This document shows positions 138 through 53,651 of a stretch of 64,000 nucleotides of DNA, one piece after another. This DNA comes from Haloimpatiens lingqiaonensis (lineage in GTDB: Bacteria; Bacillota; Clostridia; Clostridiales; Clostridiaceae), in contig NZ_CABDWS010000006.1 of assembly GCF_901447495.1 (NCBI RefSeq), positions 1 through 64,000 on the forward strand, written 5' to 3'. Under the pieces are notes generated by a model that saw only the letters and a program-made list of their open reading frames with translations, had not been told where the DNA came from and made no database searches. Position 1 is the first letter of the stretch. Each line of letters opens with the position of its first letter. A program made the translations under genes and the position numbers.

Positions 138-1529
138 ATGAAAGACATACTAATTAAGAGTCTTTACAGAGAAACAAAGCAGTATATAGGTAAAGAAGTA
201 AAAATATCAGGCTGGGTAAAAACAGTAAGAGCATCAAAAGCTTTTGGGTTTATAGAAGTTAATGATGGAAGTTTTTTTAAGAATGTACAAATAGTATTTG
301 ATGAAGCTTTAGAAAACTTTAGTGAATTAGGTAAATTACCTATAAGTGCTTCTATAGAAGTAATAGGAGAAGTAGTTGAAACACCAGGAACAAAGCAACC
401 TTTTGAAATTAAAGCTTCAAAGGTTACTAAAGTGGGAAACTCTTCATCAGATTATCCACTACAAAAGAAAAGACATACCTTTGAGTATTTAAGAAGTATA
501 GCTCACTTAAGACCAAGAAGTAACGCTTTTTCAGCAGTATTTAGAGTGCGTTCAATAGCTGCTTATGCTGTTCATAAATTCTTCCAGGAACAAGGTTTTG
601 TATATGTACACACTCCAATAATAACTGCCAGCGACTGCGAGGGTGCAGGAGAAATGTTTAGAGTTACTACTTTAGACATGGAGAACCTTCCAAAGGATGA
701 AAAGGGTAAAATAGACTATTCACAGGATTTCTTTGGAAAATCTGCTAACCTTACTGTAAGTGGTCAGCTAGAAGGAGAAATATATGCTCTAGCATTTAGA
801 AATATATATACTTTTGGACCAACTTTTAGAGCAGAAAATTCAAACACAGGAAGACACGCTTCAGAGTTCTGGATGATAGAACCAGAAATAGCTTTTGCAG
901 ATCTTGCAGATGACATGGATTTAGCAGAAGAAATGGTTAAATATATAATAAAATATGTAATGGAAAATGCTCCAGAAGAAATAGAATTCTTCAACAGCTT
1001 TATAGATAAAGGACTAAAGGATAGATTAAACAATGTTTTAAATTCTGATTTTGCAAGAATATCTTATACTGAAGCTGTAGAATTATTGAAAAAAGCAGAT
1101 GTAGAGTTTAAGTACCCAGTAGAATGGGGATGCGATCTTCAAACAGAGCATGAGAGATATATAACAGAGAAAATATACAATAAGCCAGTATTTGTAACTG
1201 ACTATCCAAAGGATATAAAGGCATTCTACATGAGAATTAATGATGACAACAAAACTGTTGCAGCAGCAGACCTTCTAGTGCCAGGAGTTGGAGAAATAAT
1301 AGGAGGAAGCCAAAGAGAAGAAAGACTTGATGTTTTAGAGGCTAGGATTGCAGAGCTTGGATTAGAAAAGGAAGATTACTGGTGGTATTTAGAGCTTAGA
1401 AAATATGGAGAAACTAAGCATGCTGGTTTTGGTTTAGGATTTGAGAGAATGATAATGTATCTAACAGGTATGAGCAATATAAGAGACGTTATACCATTCC
1501 CAAGAACTCCAGGTAGTGCAGAATTCTAA
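138..1529 (+). CDS. asnS: Asparaginyl-tRNA synthetase
   Basis: This cytoplasmic class IIb synthetase charges tRNA-Asn with asparagine. The 463-residue length is normal for bacterial AsnRS. Residues 1-115 form the OB-fold anticodon-binding domain. Class II motif 2 is seen as [21 protein letters not shown]-type sequence near residues 233-253, and motif 3 as GFGLGFERM near residue 431. ATG 138 follows GAGGAGG at 124-130. A strong terminator follows the gene, so it is probably transcribed alone or as the end of an upstream unit. Asparagine-type rather than aspartate-type assignment rests on the overall motif pattern and length (AspRS of bacteria is about 590 residues with an insertion). Confidence 0.95.
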
Positions 1530-1738: not shown

Positions 1739-2998
1739 ATGGCAGACTATAGAGAAATGTGGAAAAAGTTAAATATCAATTTAGAAAAGCACGATCAATT
1801 GTGTGAGGTTTTACCAGAGTTGTATGGTTCAGTTTATTTACAACAAGAGGATAGACCAGAAGGAATGAACTATTTTAACTATGTAGTTTCAGAAGTTCAT
1901 GGTGCAAGAATTCAGGAATTAGAAGAACACAAGAAAAATGGTGGTAAGGTTATAGGAACATTTTGTGTTTTTGTACCAGATGAAGTAATATTAGCTACAG
2001 GTGCTTTAGGAGTAGGGCTTTGTGCAGGATCTCAGTTTTGGATAGAGGATGGAGAAAAGGTTCTTCCTAAAAATCTATGTCCTTTAATTAAAGCATTTAC
2101 AGGAGCTAAAATTGGAGCTACATGTCCATATTTCCAATCTTGTGATATGTTGGTTGGGGAAACTACATGTGATGGAAAGAAAAAAGCTTGGGAATTATTA
2201 AATGAATATACTCCTGTTCATGTAATGGATTTACCACAAATGAAGAGAGAAAAAGACTATACTATGTGGAAAGATGAAATAAGAATATTTATAGATAAAA
2301 TGGAACAGTTAACTGGAAATAAGGTTACTGTAGAGAATTTAAAAGAAGCTATAAAATTAGCTAATAAAAAGAGAAGAGCTTTAAAGAGATTATATGACTT
2401 AAGAAAACATAAACCATCTCCAATAAGTGGACTTGATTGCCTTTTAATATCTCAAATTGCTTTTTATGATGATGTAAATAGATTTGTAGATAATGTAAAC
2501 AAGCTATGTGATGAATTAGAGGAAAGAATAAAGAAGGGACAAGCTAAAGAAAAGAAGAGACTTATGATAACAGGAACTCCTATGGCTCTTCCAAACTGGA
2601 AAATACATAGCATAATAGAGAACTTAGGTGCTGAGATTGTAGTTGAAGAAACTTGCACTGGTACAAGATATTTTGAAAATGAAGTTTGTGAAGATGGAGA
2701 AACTTTGGATGATTTAATAGATAATTTAGCTAGAAGATATCTAAATATCAACTGTGCTTGCTTTACACCAAATAGTGGAAGAATAGATGATATATTAAGA
2801 TATGCAAAGGAATATGATGTGGATGGAGTTATTGACTATAATTTATCTTTCTGCCATACATATGCCGTTGAAGATAAGAGCATTAGGGATATGCTAAAAG
2901 ATAAAAATATACCAGTTATGCATATAGAAACAGATTATTCCACAGAGGATTCAGGTCAAATAAAAACAAGAGTAGAAGCATTCTTAGAAATGATTTAA
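1739..2998 (+). CDS. 2-hydroxyacyl-CoA dehydratase family protein, probable double-cubane-cluster protein (DCCP)
   Basis: The 419-residue protein belongs to the HgdB/FldBC/BcrBC family, in which an ATP-driven activator supplies low-potential electrons to Fe-S clusters. Only one such subunit is encoded here, whereas true 2-hydroxyacyl-CoA dehydratases have two different subunits. A lone subunit next to its activator matches the DCCP type described from Carboxydothermus, a homodimer with an [8Fe-9S] double-cubane cluster. It is rich in cysteine: 76, 95, 114, 129, 135, 144, 306, 339, 341 and 372 lie in family-like contexts (GTFC, GLCAGSQFW, NLCPLIK, TTCDGKKK, EETCTG, SFCHTY). ATG 1739 has AGGAG 9 nt upstream; a TTG at 1730 directly touches that site and is unlikely. 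The physiological substrate is unknown. Confidence 0.8.
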   Translation: MADYREMWKKLNINLEKHDQLCEVLPELYGSVYLQQEDRPEGMNYFNYVVSEVHGARIQELEEHKKNGGKVIGTFCVFVPDEVILATGALGVGLCAGSQFWIEDGEKVLPKNLCPLIKAFTGAKIGATCPYFQSCDMLVGETTCDGKKKAWELLNEYTPVHVMDLPQMKREKDYTMWKDEIRIFIDKMEQLTGNKVTVENLKEAIKLANKKRRALKRLYDLRKHKPSPISGLDCLLISQIAFYDDVNRFVDNVNKLCDELEERIKKGQAKEKKRLMITGTPMALPNWKIHSIIENLGAEIVVEETCTGTRYFENEVCEDGETLDDLIDNLARRYLNINCACFTPNSGRIDDILRYAKEYDVDGVIDYNLSFCHTYAVEDKSIRDMLKDKNIPVMHIETDYSTEDSGQIKTRVEAFLEMI

Positions 2999-3008
2999 GG
3001 TGATTTTA

Positions 3009-3260
3009 ATGGAAAAAGAGAATCATTATATACTTTTTAGAAATCATACAGAAGGCACTAAATTAGAAAATTTGCTTAAAGAACAAAATATAAAATATGT
3101 AATCTCTCCTACTCCAAGAGAACTTTCTACTTGCTGTGGTATATGCATAATTTATGAAAAAGAAGATGAGGATAGAATAAAAGGCTTAATAGAAGAAAAT
3201 CATGTGGATATAATAGGATTTTATACTTTAAAGAAGAAGTATACTAATTTTTATGCTTAA
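3009..3260 (+). CDS. DUF3343 protein (small cysteine-containing, putative sulfur-carrier-like)
   Basis: This 83-residue protein begins MEKENHYILFRNHTEG and carries a STCCGIC motif, typical of DUF3343 proteins that occur beside sulfur- and electron-transfer genes. It lies 10 bp after the dehydratase-like gene and 13 bp before the activator gene, so the three are surely cotranscribed. The role is unknown; an accessory part in cluster assembly or electron delivery is inference from position. GTG 3000 is an alternative start, but AAGGTGA at 2997-3003 fits ATG 3009. Confidence 0.75.
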   Translation: MEKENHYILFRNHTEGTKLENLLKEQNIKYVISPTPRELSTCCGICIIYEKEDEDRIKGLIEENHVDIIGFYTLKKKYTNFYA

Positions 3261-3273
3261 AGGATGATGAGAC

Positions 3274-4029
3274 ATGTATTATGTAGGAATAGATATGGGA
3301 TCCACAGCTACAAAGGTAGTAGCTTTTGAGGGCGAGGAATTAAAAATTAAATTTTCTGTGCCAGCGGGATGGAATAGCGTAGAAACCTCTGAAAACATAA
3401 AAAATAAGTTACAGCAGCAGGGAGTAAATGAAGAGAATTCTAAAATAGTTGCCACTGGATATGGAAGGATTTCAGTGCCCTATGCCCATAAAACTATTAC
3501 AGAAATAACCTGTCATGGAAAAGGTGCTAATTATCTATATAAGGGTGATTGCACAGTTATAGATGTAGGGGGACAGGATACTAAGGTAATAACTGTGCAA
3601 AAGGGAATGGTTACTGATTTTTTAATGAATGACAAATGCTCTGCAGGTACAGGAAGATTTTTAGAGATAATGGCTAATAAATTAGGAGTAGATCTAGAAA
3701 CCCTATGCAGGCTTTCTAAAGAAGGCAGTGGAGTAACTATAAGCTCTATGTGTACTGTTTTTGCAGAATCAGAGGTAATAAGCTTGGTGGCTAAGGGAAA
3801 GAGAAGAGAGGATATAGCTTATGCTATAGTAGATTCTATAGTAAGTAAAGTGAAATCCTTGTGCTACAAACACTCCTCTTCAGAGAATTATTTTTTTACT
3901 GGGGGACTTAGTGGAAATAAGGACTTCGTAGATAAACTTTCAGAGAAGTTACAGAAAAAAGTAGAAACTCATCCTTTGGCAAAGTATGCAGGAGCCATTG
4001 GTGCAGCTTTAAGCGCTAAAAAAATATGA
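3274..4029 (+). CDS. ATP-dependent activator/reductase of the dehydratase-like protein (BcrAD/BadFG ATPase family, HgdC-like)
   Basis: The ASKHA-fold ATPase of 251 residues uses ATP hydrolysis to drive one electron from a subunit-bridging [4Fe-4S] cluster into its partner. The phosphate-binding loop IDMGSTATK is at residues 6-14 and DVGGQDTK at 97-104. The cluster ligands known in HgdC correspond to Cys122 (CSAGTGRF) and Cys160 (SSMCTVFAESEV), one pair per homodimer. ATG 3274 follows AAAGGATGATGAGAC. It is the third gene of the 1739-4029 unit and its obvious partner is the protein at 1739-2998. Confidence 0.88.
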   Translation: MYYVGIDMGSTATKVVAFEGEELKIKFSVPAGWNSVETSENIKNKLQQQGVNEENSKIVATGYGRISVPYAHKTITEITCHGKGANYLYKGDCTVIDVGGQDTKVITVQKGMVTDFLMNDKCSAGTGRFLEIMANKLGVDLETLCRLSKEGSGVTISSMCTVFAESEVISLVAKGKRREDIAYAIVDSIVSKVKSLCYKHSSSENYFFTGGLSGNKDFVDKLSEKLQKKVETHPLAKYAGAIGAALSAKKI

Positions 4030-4035
4030 TAAATA

Positions 4036-4080
4036 CCCCCATGAAAGCCATTAGTAAGGTTTTTCATGGGGGTTATTTTA
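4036..4080 (+). terminator. Terminator of the DCCP-type operon
   Basis: An 11-bp stem (CCCCCATGAAA at 4036-4046 with TTTCATGGGGG at 4062-4072) is followed by TTATTTTA, directly after the activator gene. Confidence 0.85.
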
Positions 4081-4170: not shown

Positions 4171-6066
4171 TTAAATATCTAATAAATTTTTTTCATAAGT
4201 ACAATATAATTTTCTAAGTTCTTCCATTTTGTTGTCTAGCTCTAATTGAAGTTCAGATATAAGAGGTAAATCCTCATTTTTACTAGCTTCTTTTATTTGA
4301 GTAAATAGACTTTTTCTATCATAAGTATCCTTCATTATGTACTTTCTTAAATCATTTATTTTTATCCAATATGAAAGGTCTAAGTCTAGAGCTAAATCAT
4401 CTAAATGCAATTTCTTATAGCCTCTAACCTCTTTCATATAGTTATTTATTATTCTATGGTTTATTTCCATTAGCCACCTTTTAATAGAAGTACTTTTAAA
4501 ACCATTAATTATTGTATCAGTAAAGACATTACCTTTCTTTAATATAGCCACTTTATCTTTACAATTATCTAAAAATGAAAGATTTTCCTGTACAGTTTTA
4601 GGAGCTTTTCCAAAGAACTTATCTCTATCTTTTTCAGAATATTTATGGAATACATCATCTTCACTTCTATACATTCTATACTTCTCTAAGTATCCAAATT
4701 CTTCCCCATAATTTTTAGATAACTCTTTTAATAGGTCATCTTCAGTTTTAGACTCTTTTATTGCATAACTTATTCCGTCTAACATAGCCATACACATGGA
4801 AGCTATACATAAATAAGTATTAGTATGTGGGTTTGGCGATCTCAATTCAAATCTAGTTGAAAAAGGATTATCTAAATCTCTTATAAGAGCTAATAGTATA
4901 GTCCTATTTCTAGAAGGCATTTCTACTGTATGTCCTAAGGAAGTAACTACACAAACAGGTGCTTCAAAGCCTGGTTTTAATCTCTTAAGGGAATTATATG
5001 TAGGGGAAACAAAGGGACTTATCACCTCATAATTTTTTAGAATTCCCATTATTGATGCATAACCTATGGCACTAAGAAAATGATCCTTAGTGGCAGTAAA
5101 TAAATTTATGCATTTTCCGGATTTACAGTTTAAAGTTATACTAATATGAGTATGCTTTCCGCTACCTGCCACTGAATCAATTGGCTTAGCTAAAAAGGTA
5201 ACATCAAGCCCGTTTAATCTAAAAGTTTCTCTTACTATATTTTTAATAATGATTTCATTGTCTGAGGTTTGAATAGCATTAGAGTATTTCCAATCTATTT
5301 CTAGCTGCTCCATTATATGTGTGTAGCTGCCTGATTCATTTACTTTAGCTTTTACGCCCCCTACTTCCTTGTGACCCATTTCAGGATTAAAGCCATAAGC
5401 CTCCATAAGCATTAGACATTGTTCTAATGAAGTTCTTACAGAGCCTTTGGTTCTTGTCCAGTATTGCTCTTGAAGTACTTGAGATGTGGACAGTTCTTCT
5501 ACATGAGCTTCGTCATTAGGTGTTTGAACCCAAAATTCTAGTTCTGTAGCGGCAGTAACTGAAATATCTTCAATGTCATCAAACTCTATATTATAGGTAT
5601 GTAAAAGTTCAGGAGTTTCTCTAAACATATTCATAAGAGAAGTTTTGAAAAAATGAATGGCATTTTTTAGAATTGAACGAGAGTCTACAGCCTTGCTATC
5701 ATGATATAAAAAACAAGGGATTCTAAGGGTTCCTATAGGGCGCCCACTTTTAGAGTCTAAATGTTCATAGTTATAGTCTATAAACCAAGTTGAGTCCTTA
5801 TCCGCAATCATATCAATTTTTGCATTGTTTATAGTGGCTATACCAGGTAGTGCTACAGATGAGCCGTCAGTTTGTATAGCACCTGTTAAAAAACCTTCTA
5901 TATCCTTTAGAAATAATGATATTGGAATCTTTTCATCTGTGTCATTTCCAGCTAAGTCCACGCCTACAAAAGAAACGAATTTTACCTCAGGAGCATTAGA
6001 TAATATATCTTTTAGCGCTTTAGGGGAGTGGTTTTCTTTTGAAATTGTGTATAGTAAATCATTCAT
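4171..6066 (-). CDS. Glutamine synthetase-like protein with long C-terminal extension
   Basis: The first ~420 of 631 residues follow the glutamine synthetase fold: TDGSSV (67-71), the metal-site segment ATELEFWV (172-180), GHKEVGG (231-237), the ATP-site segment GSGKHTH (301-307), PTYNSLKRL (355-363) and RFELRSPNPHTNTY (405-418). Several differ from classical GlnA (GSGMHVHQS, PTVNSYKRL), so glutamate-ammonia ligation is likely but not certain; a gamma-glutamyl-amine ligase is possible. About 200 helical residues at the C-terminus have no counterpart in ~445-residue GSI enzymes. ATG 6066 is preferred over ATG 6072 because GGAGGG lies 6 nt before the former and touches the latter. The gene stands alone, divergent from murI. 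Confidence 0.8.
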   Translation of the reverse strand: MNDLLYTISKENHSPKALKDILSNAPEVKFVSFVGVDLAGNDTDEKIPISLFLKDIEGFLTGAIQTDGSSVALPGIATINNAKIDMIADKDSTWFIDYNYEHLDSKSGRPIGTLRIPCFLYHDSKAVDSRSILKNAIHFFKTSLMNMFRETPELLHTYNIEFDDIEDISVTAATELEFWVQTPNDEAHVEELSTSQVLQEQYWTRTKGSVRTSLEQCLMLMEAYGFNPEMGHKEVGGVKAKVNESGSYTHIMEQLEIDWKYSNAIQTSDNEIIIKNIVRETFRLNGLDVTFLAKPIDSVAGSGKHTHISITLNCKSGKCINLFTATKDHFLSAIGYASIMGILKNYEVISPFVSPTYNSLKRLKPGFEAPVCVVTSLGHTVEMPSRNRTILLALIRDLDNPFSTRFELRSPNPHTNTYLCIASMCMAMLDGISYAIKESKTEDDLLKELSKNYGEEFGYLEKYRMYRSEDDVFHKYSEKDRDKFFGKAPKTVQENLSFLDNCKDKVAILKKGNVFTDTIINGFKSTSIKRWLMEINHRIINNYMKEVRGYKKLHLDDLALDLDLSYWIKINDLRKYIMKDTYDRKSLFTQIKEASKNEDLPLISELQLELDNKMEELRKLYCTYEKNLLDI

Positions 6067-6230
6067 AAACATCCCTCCAAGAAAAAATTATATGCCAAAA
6101 ATTCTACATTAATAACAATTCAATGTCAAGAAAAATGAAATGGATTCATAGGTTAATTTAATATAAATATTTAAAAGAAGCTAATAATAGTGAAAAAAAC
6201 ATTGATTTTTAATATTTTTCTATATTTTAT

Positions 6231-52691: not shown

Positions 52692-52780
52692 GCTGGAGTG
52701 GCGGAACTGGCAGACGCACAGGACTTAAAATCCTGCGGTGCTAAAACACCGTACCGGTTCGATTCCGGTCTTCAGCACCA
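52692..52780 (+). tRNA. tRNA-Leu (TAA), copy 1
   Basis: An 89-nt class II tRNA with acceptor GCTGGAG/CTTCAGC, anticodon loop CTTAAAA (TAA), long variable arm GGTGCTAAAACACC and encoded CCA. It is identical to the copies at 53021, 53211 and 53401. A 5-nt spacer separates it from the next tRNA. Confidence 0.97.
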
Positions 52781-52785
52781 AATAA

Positions 52786-52861
<76 letters not shown>

Positions 52862-52864
52862 CAT

Positions 52865-52941
52865 GGCGGAATAGCTCAGCTGGCTAGAGCATTCGGTTCA
52901 TACCCGAAGTGTCGTAGGTTCAAGTCCTATTTCCGCTACCA
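52865..52941 (+). tRNA. Elongator tRNA-Met (CAT), copy 1
   Basis: A 77-nt tRNA starting GGCGGAATAGCTCAG, anticodon loop TTCATAC with CAT, CCA encoded. The anticodon stem lacks the three G-C pairs of the initiator. Because the CAT anticodon may be modified to lysidine, tRNA-Ile2 cannot be fully excluded. An 80-bp spacer without a clear terminator follows. Confidence 0.9.
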
Positions 52942-53020
52942 TTTGCTTAATCATTGTAAGGGCAATTGCATTGAATTTTTGGTTGCATTAATATAATATT
53001 TATTATAGGCATAATAATAT

Positions 53021-53109
53021 GCTGGAGTGGCGGAACTGGCAGACGCACAGGACTTAAAATCCTGCGGTGCTAAAACACCGTACCGGTTCGATTCCGGTCT
53101 TCAGCACCA
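53021..53109 (+). tRNA. tRNA-Leu (TAA), copy 2
   Basis: Identical to copy 1. It begins the first of three units with an exact 190-bp period (53021, 53211, 53401). A 6-nt spacer precedes the next tRNA. Confidence 0.97.
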
Positions 53110-53115
53110 AAATGT

Positions 53116-53191
<76 letters not shown>

Positions 53192-53210
53192 AAAATTTAA
53201 AAATTAATAC

Positions 53211-53299
53211 GCTGGAGTGGCGGAACTGGCAGACGCACAGGACTTAAAATCCTGCGGTGCTAAAACACCGTACCGGTTCGATTCCGGTCTTCAGCACCA
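53211..53299 (+). tRNA. tRNA-Leu (TAA), copy 3
   Basis: Identical to copy 1 and exactly 190 bp after copy 2. Confidence 0.97.
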
Positions 53300-53305
53300 A
53301 AATGT

Positions 53306-53381
<76 letters not shown>

Positions 53382-53400
53382 AAAATTTAAAAATTAATAC

Positions 53401-53489
53401 GCTGGAGTGGCGGAACTGGCAGACGCACAGGACTTAAAATCCTGCGGTGCTAAAACACCGTACCGGTTCGATTCCGGTCTTCAGCACCA
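53401..53489 (+). tRNA. tRNA-Leu (TAA), copy 4
   Basis: Identical to copy 1. Its 5' spacer and 3' 6-nt spacer match copies 2 and 3. Confidence 0.97.
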
Positions 53490-53495
53490 AAATGT

Positions 53496-53571
<76 letters not shown>

Positions 53572-53574
53572 CAT

Positions 53575-53651
53575 GGCGGAATAGCTCAGCTGGCTAGAGC
53601 ATTCGGTTCATACCCGAAGTGTCGTAGGTTCAAGTCCTATTTCCGCTACCA
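53575..53651 (+). tRNA. Elongator tRNA-Met (CAT), copy 2
   Basis: Identical to the tRNA at 52865-52941, with the same 3-nt spacer before it. Last gene of the array. As for copy 1, tRNA-Ile2 is not fully excluded. Confidence 0.9.

Follow-up and report, generated by a model that had tools for sequence, protein, structure and literature searches.

A double-cubane cluster protein operon in Haloimpatiens lingqiaonensis and its link to DUF3343 and selenium genes

What does a lone double-cubane cluster protein (DCCP) do for its host when a small DUF3343 gene stands between it and its ATP-driven activase? The question is raised by three plus-strand genes at positions 1739 to 4029 of a 64,000-nucleotide stretch of the Haloimpatiens lingqiaonensis genome (assembly GCF_901447495.1, contig NZ_CABDWS010000006.1, positions 1 to 64,000; this whole stretch is the window referred to below). 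DCCP is one of the few proteins besides nitrogenase with an eight-iron cluster, and ATP gives it extreme reducing power. Its biological function was described as unknown in 2025 (PMC11971306). We find that DCCP genes are nearly confined to SelD-positive genomes among those sampled, and that the window operon, whose DCCP falls in a branch linked to DUF3343, most likely serves selenium (or sulfur) handling. The selenium link is an addition to the initial annotation of this locus and came as an unplanned result from a survey of DCCP neighbors; now that it is quantified, and with a carrier-like partner at hand, the question of DCCP function is testable in Escherichia coli K-12.

The DCCP gene (1739-2998) encodes 419 amino acids from the ATG at 1739, the DUF3343 gene (3009-3260) 83 amino acids from the ATG at 3009, and the gene of the activase, or DCCP reductase (DCCP-R; 3274-4029), 251 amino acids; the list of open reading frames (ORFs) begins the first two at a TTG at 1730 and a GTG at 3000. 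All three lie head to tail with gaps of 10 and 13 nucleotides and a purine-rich, Shine-Dalgarno-like stretch ahead of each start, and their products match PF06050 (HGD-D; 434.5 bits), PF11823 (81.5 bits, cutoff 25), and PF01869 (BcrAD_BadFG; 195.6 bits), respectively. The ORFs, the gaps, and the family matches bear out the three-gene operon read in the initial annotation.

The product of the first gene scores 530.7 bits against NF040772 (double-cubane-cluster-containing anaerobic reductase; cutoff 350), and its best matches in the PDB are chains of 6eno and 7yyl (E value of about 1e-156). The entries 6eno, 7yyl, 7yzm, and 7yzq come from Carboxydothermus hydrogenoformans (their PDB rows read "Dehydratase family protein"). 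PMC11971306 treats the two best matches as DCCP structures and gives the double-cubane ligands of BzdN as Cys36, Cys73, Cys100, Cys263, Cys293, and Cys327. When 200 distinct DCCPs were aligned with 6eno, BzdN, and 3o3m_B, with positions mapped from BzdN rather than from DCCP structure papers, all six ligand positions proved to be cysteines in the window protein, namely C76 (1964-1966), C114 (2078-2080), C144 (2168-2170), C306 (2654-2656), C341 (2759-2761), and C372 (2852-2854). Columns 76, 114, 144, 306, and 372 hold cysteine in 200/200 DCCPs and column 341, which aligns with BzdN Cys293, in 159/200; the neighboring C339 (2753-2755) is a cysteine in all 200, and the putative ligand at this place would be C339 and/or C341, with C339 rather than C341 a candidate that may be the true one. 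Further cysteines occur at C95 (200/200) and C129 (197/200). The beta subunit of the HadI dehydratase, 3o3m_B, lacks equivalents of BzdN positions 36 and 263, and the possibility that the window protein would show only the three ligands of a classical dehydratase subunit did not hold. By sequence, therefore, the window protein is a DCCP family member, as the initial annotation had proposed, with a full double-cubane ligand set and a predicted [8Fe-9S] cluster.

That annotation had also read the protein as a lone subunit, and here too the analysis agrees. The operon holds a single PF06050 gene and no partner subunit, the models for HadC, HadB, BzdN, BzdO, BcrC, and BcrB score far below their cutoffs on the window DCCP, and no CoA-transferase was seen in the operon (the remaining genome was not searched for one). 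Judged by these comparisons, the system is not a two-subunit 2-hydroxyacyl-CoA dehydratase. Other PF06050 matches of the host genome lie at a second, likewise lone DCCP and at a distant locus. The second DCCP (locus L007, 1260-2408, on contig C74) is of the short form described below, scores 557.6 bits, and has no activase or DUF3343 gene labeled in the surrounding 6 kb; at the distant locus (L010, 4005-6935, on contig C21), two dehydratase-like frames stand together with an activase in a run of their own that does not resemble the window operon.

The third gene product scores 248.8 bits against TIGR00241 (cutoff 125.4) and matches the activase HgdC (1hux; E value of 4.8e-53) as well as DCCP-R (7yyl_E; 8.2e-37), with 1hux and two others outscoring 7yyl_E and the activator of 2-hydroxyisocaproyl-CoA dehydratase also among the matches. 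Its cysteine regions KCSAGTGRF and SSMCTVFAES, which presumably hold the ligands of the activase cluster, align with those of HgdC, and the protein is thus classed, from its family matches, as an ATP-driven activase of the DCCP-R kind. Activase matches over the cutoff elsewhere in the host genome are those on C21 and two within one 1,434-amino-acid frame on contig C4 (the window itself lies on C6).

The second protein belongs to PF11823, whose present Pfam name, Se_S_carrier, has replaced DUF3343. It contains the motif STCCGIC, with Cys42 at 3132-3134 and Cys43 at 3135-3137, as the initial annotation had pointed out; the motif is there, but among 50 aligned DCCP-linked members only the second of its cysteines, C43, is invariant, along with F10, G16, P34, P36, R37, and G44, and a conserved three-cysteine motif is rejected. 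Among distinct DUF3343 proteins in the loci examined, the CCG form is found in 18/43 that are DCCP-adjacent and in 0/40 that are not; since the latter set was drawn chiefly from the 30 loci with the best PF11823 scores and CCG is frequent in the host family, we read this form as a lineage feature. Two further DUF3343 genes of the host genome, one beside YedF and one beside YedE and a TusA-like gene, encode a single cysteine in the motif, and near each of them is a divergent cysteine-desulfurase-family gene (TIGR01977). A profile search of the PDB with the window protein gave no match. Its AlphaFold2 model (beta-alpha-beta-beta-alpha-beta; mean predicted local distance difference test score of 79.9, predicted template modeling score of 0.61) has a best Foldseek E value of 8.4e-3, which is weak, and a best VIA-align Z score of 7.4, reached with an unrelated domain (66 residues, root mean square deviation of 2.5); these weak fold matches are to common ferredoxin-like domains (GlnK, PstA, UreE, PrgK, and others), and we draw no function from them. 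From its family and its alignment, we class the protein as carrier-like, a PF11823 member in which a single cysteine is invariant.

To what extent DUF3343 belongs with DCCP was assessed with 398 genomes sampled from one phylum, in which DCCP is over the cutoff in 117 genomes and DUF3343 in 240. Outside the host genome, DCCP loci were taken as 137 regions among the matches listed, and neighbors were labeled with profiles built for this study. DCCPs come in two forms, a short one and a long one, the latter with the N-terminal extension that 6eno shares with the window protein. A DUF3343 gene lies directly downstream on the same strand of 24/76 long but only 1/74 short DCCPs in the phylum loci among the matches listed (both host DCCPs included) and of 19/20 long and 0/5 short DCCPs in the host family, where the 20 loci had been chosen for having a long form; together with the one E. 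coli DCCP, these sum to 43/96 and 1/80, with the E. coli DUF3343 gene standing not directly next to DCCP but after the activase. In a further 80 named loci, which were sought through DUF3343-linked DCCPs and are hence biased, DUF3343 is beside DCCP in 74, including those of Clostridium ljungdahlii, Clostridium carboxidivorans, and Clostridium drakei (L298 would be a 75th, but its frames overlap by more than the counting rule allows). The placement of DUF3343 between the two parts of the redox system, which the initial annotation had emphasized, recurs in 38 of these 74 loci, where the activase comes next; across the phylum sample it does not generalize, for there the activase may be upstream, downstream, or absent from the stretch, and it is the order DCCP-then-DUF3343 that is conserved. 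A cysteine-desulfurase-family gene comes next in some DCCP-DUF3343 loci.

The DCCP tree has the same grain. All but one of the 44 DUF3343-linked DCCPs (43/44) fall within a supported set of 59 long-form rows (Shimodaira-Hasegawa-like approximate likelihood ratio test value of 97), and 6eno belongs to another supported group, of 29 rows, none of them DUF3343-linked. From the neighbor counts and this tree we take the durable unit to be DCCP plus DUF3343, with "between" as one of several layouts. The conserved position after DCCP supports the earlier suggestion that DUF3343 is a functional third part of the system, though 16/117 DCCP-positive genomes have no DUF3343 match, and for that reason DUF3343 looks, from these distributions, like a non-obligatory partner within one branch of DCCPs.

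An extra cysteine in the N-terminal extension, Cys22 (1802-1804), is present in every counted long-form DCCP with DUF3343 directly downstream (43/43, versus 9/49 without it; four "long" rows placed among the short forms in the tree, L082, L115, L136, and L210, were left out of the count). On supported branches this association amounts to only five independent pairs (median sign-test P of 0.5), and Cys22 is kept only as a hint because the independent changes are too few for significance.

One line of evidence for a link to selenium is co-occurrence. In the phylum sample, SelD is over the cutoff in 114/117 DCCP-positive genomes and in 147/281 others, the latter made up of 65/105 genomes that have only weaker dehydratase paralogs and 82/176 that have neither. 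Within the host family the nesting is complete, with SelD in 43/43 DCCP-positive genomes versus 33/73 others (Fisher test, 3e-11); five genera vary in both DCCP and SelD (within-genus permutation P of 0.0009), and all 19 genera with DCCP have SelD (19/19). DCCP is also present in six family genomes that lack SelA, from which we conclude that it tracks SelD rather than selenocysteine decoding alone. All six carry YqeB, a marker of the selenium-dependent molybdenum hydroxylase (SDMH), and none (0/6) has a tRNA selenouridine synthase over the cutoff. That DCCP might be the sole SelD client in such genomes is not supported, given YqeB in each of them. Among 14 control genomes, DCCP and DUF3343 matches occur only in E. 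coli and Methanocaldococcus jannaschii, and SelD is over the cutoff in 2/14. The host genome has a selD gene (L215; contig C13, 11309-12229) beside selA (C13, 9778-11130), along with a selenouridine synthase; its SelD is probably itself a selenoprotein, as the gene contains one in-frame TGA.

Gene runs connect the same families directly. YedF-SelD-DCCP-activase occurs as a same-strand run in L346, L347, and L348, DCCP-activase-SelD-YedF-DUF3343 in L349, and a longer cluster with selD and DCCP in L350 (these five were selected since SelD stood close to DCCP in 5/43 DCCP-positive family genomes). Further runs are DCCP-activase-DUF3343-YedF-SelD in L090 and YedE-TusA-like-DCCP-activase-DCCP-DUF3343-Sec-lyase-like-SelD-YedF in L149, where Sec stands for selenocysteine. 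In L193, DCCP, DUF3343, activase, and Sec-lyase-like genes are followed by a fusion gene and YedF; the fusion is a single frame (L193, 4869-6164) in which DUF3343 (residues 2-64) is N-terminal to SelD (residues 97-401). Within 5 kb of DCCP, at least one of DUF3343, Sec-lyase-like, YedF, YedE, and TusA-like genes is found for 64/151 DCCPs of the phylum loci listed and none for 87/151.

The closest characterized relative, the DCCP/DCCP-R of C. hydrogenoformans (6eno; complex in 7yyl, 7yzm, and 7yzq), resembles the window system in its lone long-form DCCP, its ligand cysteines, and its adjacent activase; the corresponding locus may be L147, a DCCP-activase pair in which DCCP and 6eno show 100% identity across 420 columns. 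Unlike the window, the 6eno system has no adjacent DUF3343 gene (its genome, G048, has one elsewhere), has Leu at position 22, and belongs to a different DCCP branch. E. coli K-12 has all three components in one gene run, yjiM-yjiL-ytiA, which differs from the window in its short-form DCCP, its order (DCCP-activase-DUF3343), and its more divergent DUF3343 (48.9 bits). The DUF3343 member of this run, ytiA (L214, 1669-1926), is a small gene annotated as uncharacterized; its DNA is present in 5,335/5,426 complete E. coli genomes, and among the papers listed for ytiA, yjiM, and yjiL (30 of 74), none has a title about ytiA. Transcripts of yjiM and yjiL drop together with those of many anaerobic genes, and so not specifically, in an E. 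coli ygfI mutant (PMC9068703).

Selenium has been brought up for both families before. Lin et al. (2015; PMC5322559) proposed DUF3343 as a selenium/sulfur trafficking chaperone, with the binding of Se or S as a prediction only, and the Slackia heliotrinireducens selenium cluster of that paper brings the same gene families together (DUF3343, YedF, Sec lyase, activase, and dehydratase), although in the accessible text the dehydratase and activase figure in a table only and are given no role. A 2023 preprint on type 1 mlp clusters (PMC10418091) provisionally ties a "dicubane cluster protein" to selenium metabolism, and a figure legend in it counts DCCP and DCCPR among selenium genes, so a bare DCCP-selenium link is not new; the preprint concerns methyl-selenium transfer, and its accessible text has neither DUF3343 nor a survey of DCCP against SelD. 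In open-license papers we found no prior report of a DCCP branch linked to DUF3343, of counts that nest DCCP in SelD-positive genomes, of a fusion between DUF3343 and SelD, or of the reaction proposed below, although a figure in PMC10418091 may show clusters of selD and DCCP.

What, then, might the operon do? We favor, tentatively, a selenium (chalcogen) handling module in which DCCP would free selenide from a carrier with ATP-driven electrons. SelD requires selenide, and the Se0/HSe- couple is at about -0.7 V at pH 7, a potential lower than that of ordinary reductants. Se (or S) would first be loaded onto Cys43 of DUF3343 by a Sec-lyase or cysteine-desulfurase-like enzyme, giving a perselenide or persulfide; the activase would hydrolyze ATP and drive very-low-potential electrons into the [8Fe-9S] cluster of DCCP, which would then reduce the carried chalcogen by two electrons to selenide, the SelD substrate. 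DUF3343 would in this scheme be an optional, dedicated delivery partner for one DCCP branch, and because a perselenide on a carrier needs reduction for release, an ATP-driven reductase beside the carrier would supply it. Class I benzoyl-CoA reductases (BzdNO and MbdNO) offer a parallel, with the same cluster type in BzdN and an ATP-driven activase feeding the enzyme; the clusters of BzdNO take up the second and third electrons below -600 mV, and the related TudS, which has a [4Fe-5S] cluster, is called a sulfur-transferring enzyme (PMC11971306). These reductases are unlike the window system in having two unlike subunits and a CoA-ester substrate. A sharper version, in which the natural DCCP substrate is protein-bound selenium (a Cys43 perselenide that the double cubane binds at its bridging chalcogen site and from which ATP-driven super-reduction releases selenide to SelD), we regard as doubtful. 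Were it true, the system would be an ATP-powered selenide generator working near the Se0/HSe- potential, with yjiM-yjiL-ytiA as its E. coli version, and more generally a selenium handling role would mean a dedicated enzyme for the reduction step ahead of selenophosphate synthesis.

Several observations weigh against a selenium handling module. The DCCP activities cited in PMC11971306 are on acetylene, hydrazine, and azide, with no selenium among them in the accessible text, and the cargo could be sulfur instead. DCCP and SelD may co-occur in part because their hosts share an anaerobic lifestyle, and all SelD counts come from one phylum; with stratification by GTDB family, the P value for the phylum sample is 0.29, as few families vary. 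SelD is within 5 kb of only 6/151 phylum-sample DCCPs (loci listed, some of which end at a contig end), and no other selenium gene adjoins the operon in the window itself. Among SelD-positive genomes, DUF3343 is only slightly commoner with DCCP (99/114) than without it (111/147; P of 0.027), and there are the 16 DCCP-positive genomes without it. Finally, G182 (94% complete) has DCCP and no SelD over the cutoff, possibly as a case of sulfur-only use or an assembly gap; the other two such exceptions are G118 (81% complete) and G271 (84% complete). The G182 locus, L171, is a cluster of activase, DCCP, YedF, Sec-lyase-like, and DUF3343 genes.

There are rival explanations. DCCP could be a generic low-potential reductase of an unrelated small molecule, its overlap with SelD arising from anaerobic lifestyle and co-traveling clusters. 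SelD is indeed common in the phylum sample, the family-stratified test is not significant, and 87 of the 151 DCCPs have none of the five marker genes nearby; yet the complete nesting and within-genus result in the host family, the SelD frequency of 65/105 in genomes that have only related dehydratases, and the existence of selD-DCCP gene runs all speak against it, and we consider this explanation rather doubtful. The conserved pair in one DCCP branch, the desulfurase-family gene next to some pairs, and the invariable Cys22 of DUF3343-linked long forms would also suit a maturation role, in which DUF3343 brings the ninth, bridging sulfide for [8Fe-9S] assembly in DCCP and the substrate of DCCP is left unassigned. 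Such a factor is unlikely, as 16/117 DCCP-positive genomes have no DUF3343 match, the 6eno branch and almost every short-form DCCP have none adjacent, a cluster of this kind also forms in BzdN (PMC11971306), and neither the SelD co-occurrence nor the DUF3343-SelD fusion would be accounted for.

The direction of the selenium link might, alternatively, be reversed, with DCCP as a selenium client into which SelD and DUF3343 put Se, for example, at the double-cubane bridge. Nesting in SelD-positive genomes and the company of SelD without SelA would both follow, but all six SelA-lacking family genomes have another SelD client by the YqeB marker, so that SelD has a use in them besides DCCP, and sulfur is the bridging atom in the refined structure of BzdN (PMC11971306); we judge a client role to be quite improbable. 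Least credible by far is a 2-hydroxyacyl-CoA dehydratase or benzoyl-CoA-reductase-type enzyme whose partner subunit is lost or distant: the PF06050 superfamily and the activase are held in common, whereas the subunit models score far below their cutoffs, six double-cubane ligands contrast with the reduced set of 3o3m_B, no partner is encoded in the operon, and the other PF06050 matches of the genome are on C74 and C21.

Elsewhere in the window, the operon is flanked, as read from translations, by an asnS-like gene (138-1529, plus strand) and a glutamine-synthetase-like gene (4171-6072, minus strand). It ends at a plus-strand, terminator-like hairpin (CCCCCATGAAA...TTTCATGGGGG, about 4030-4080) that precedes a T-rich stretch and was read by eye rather than found by a terminator scan. 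Farther along, at 52692-53651, ten tRNA genes form an array, mostly of repeated Leu(TAA)-Met(CAT) units, in which several copies have identical Rfam scores.

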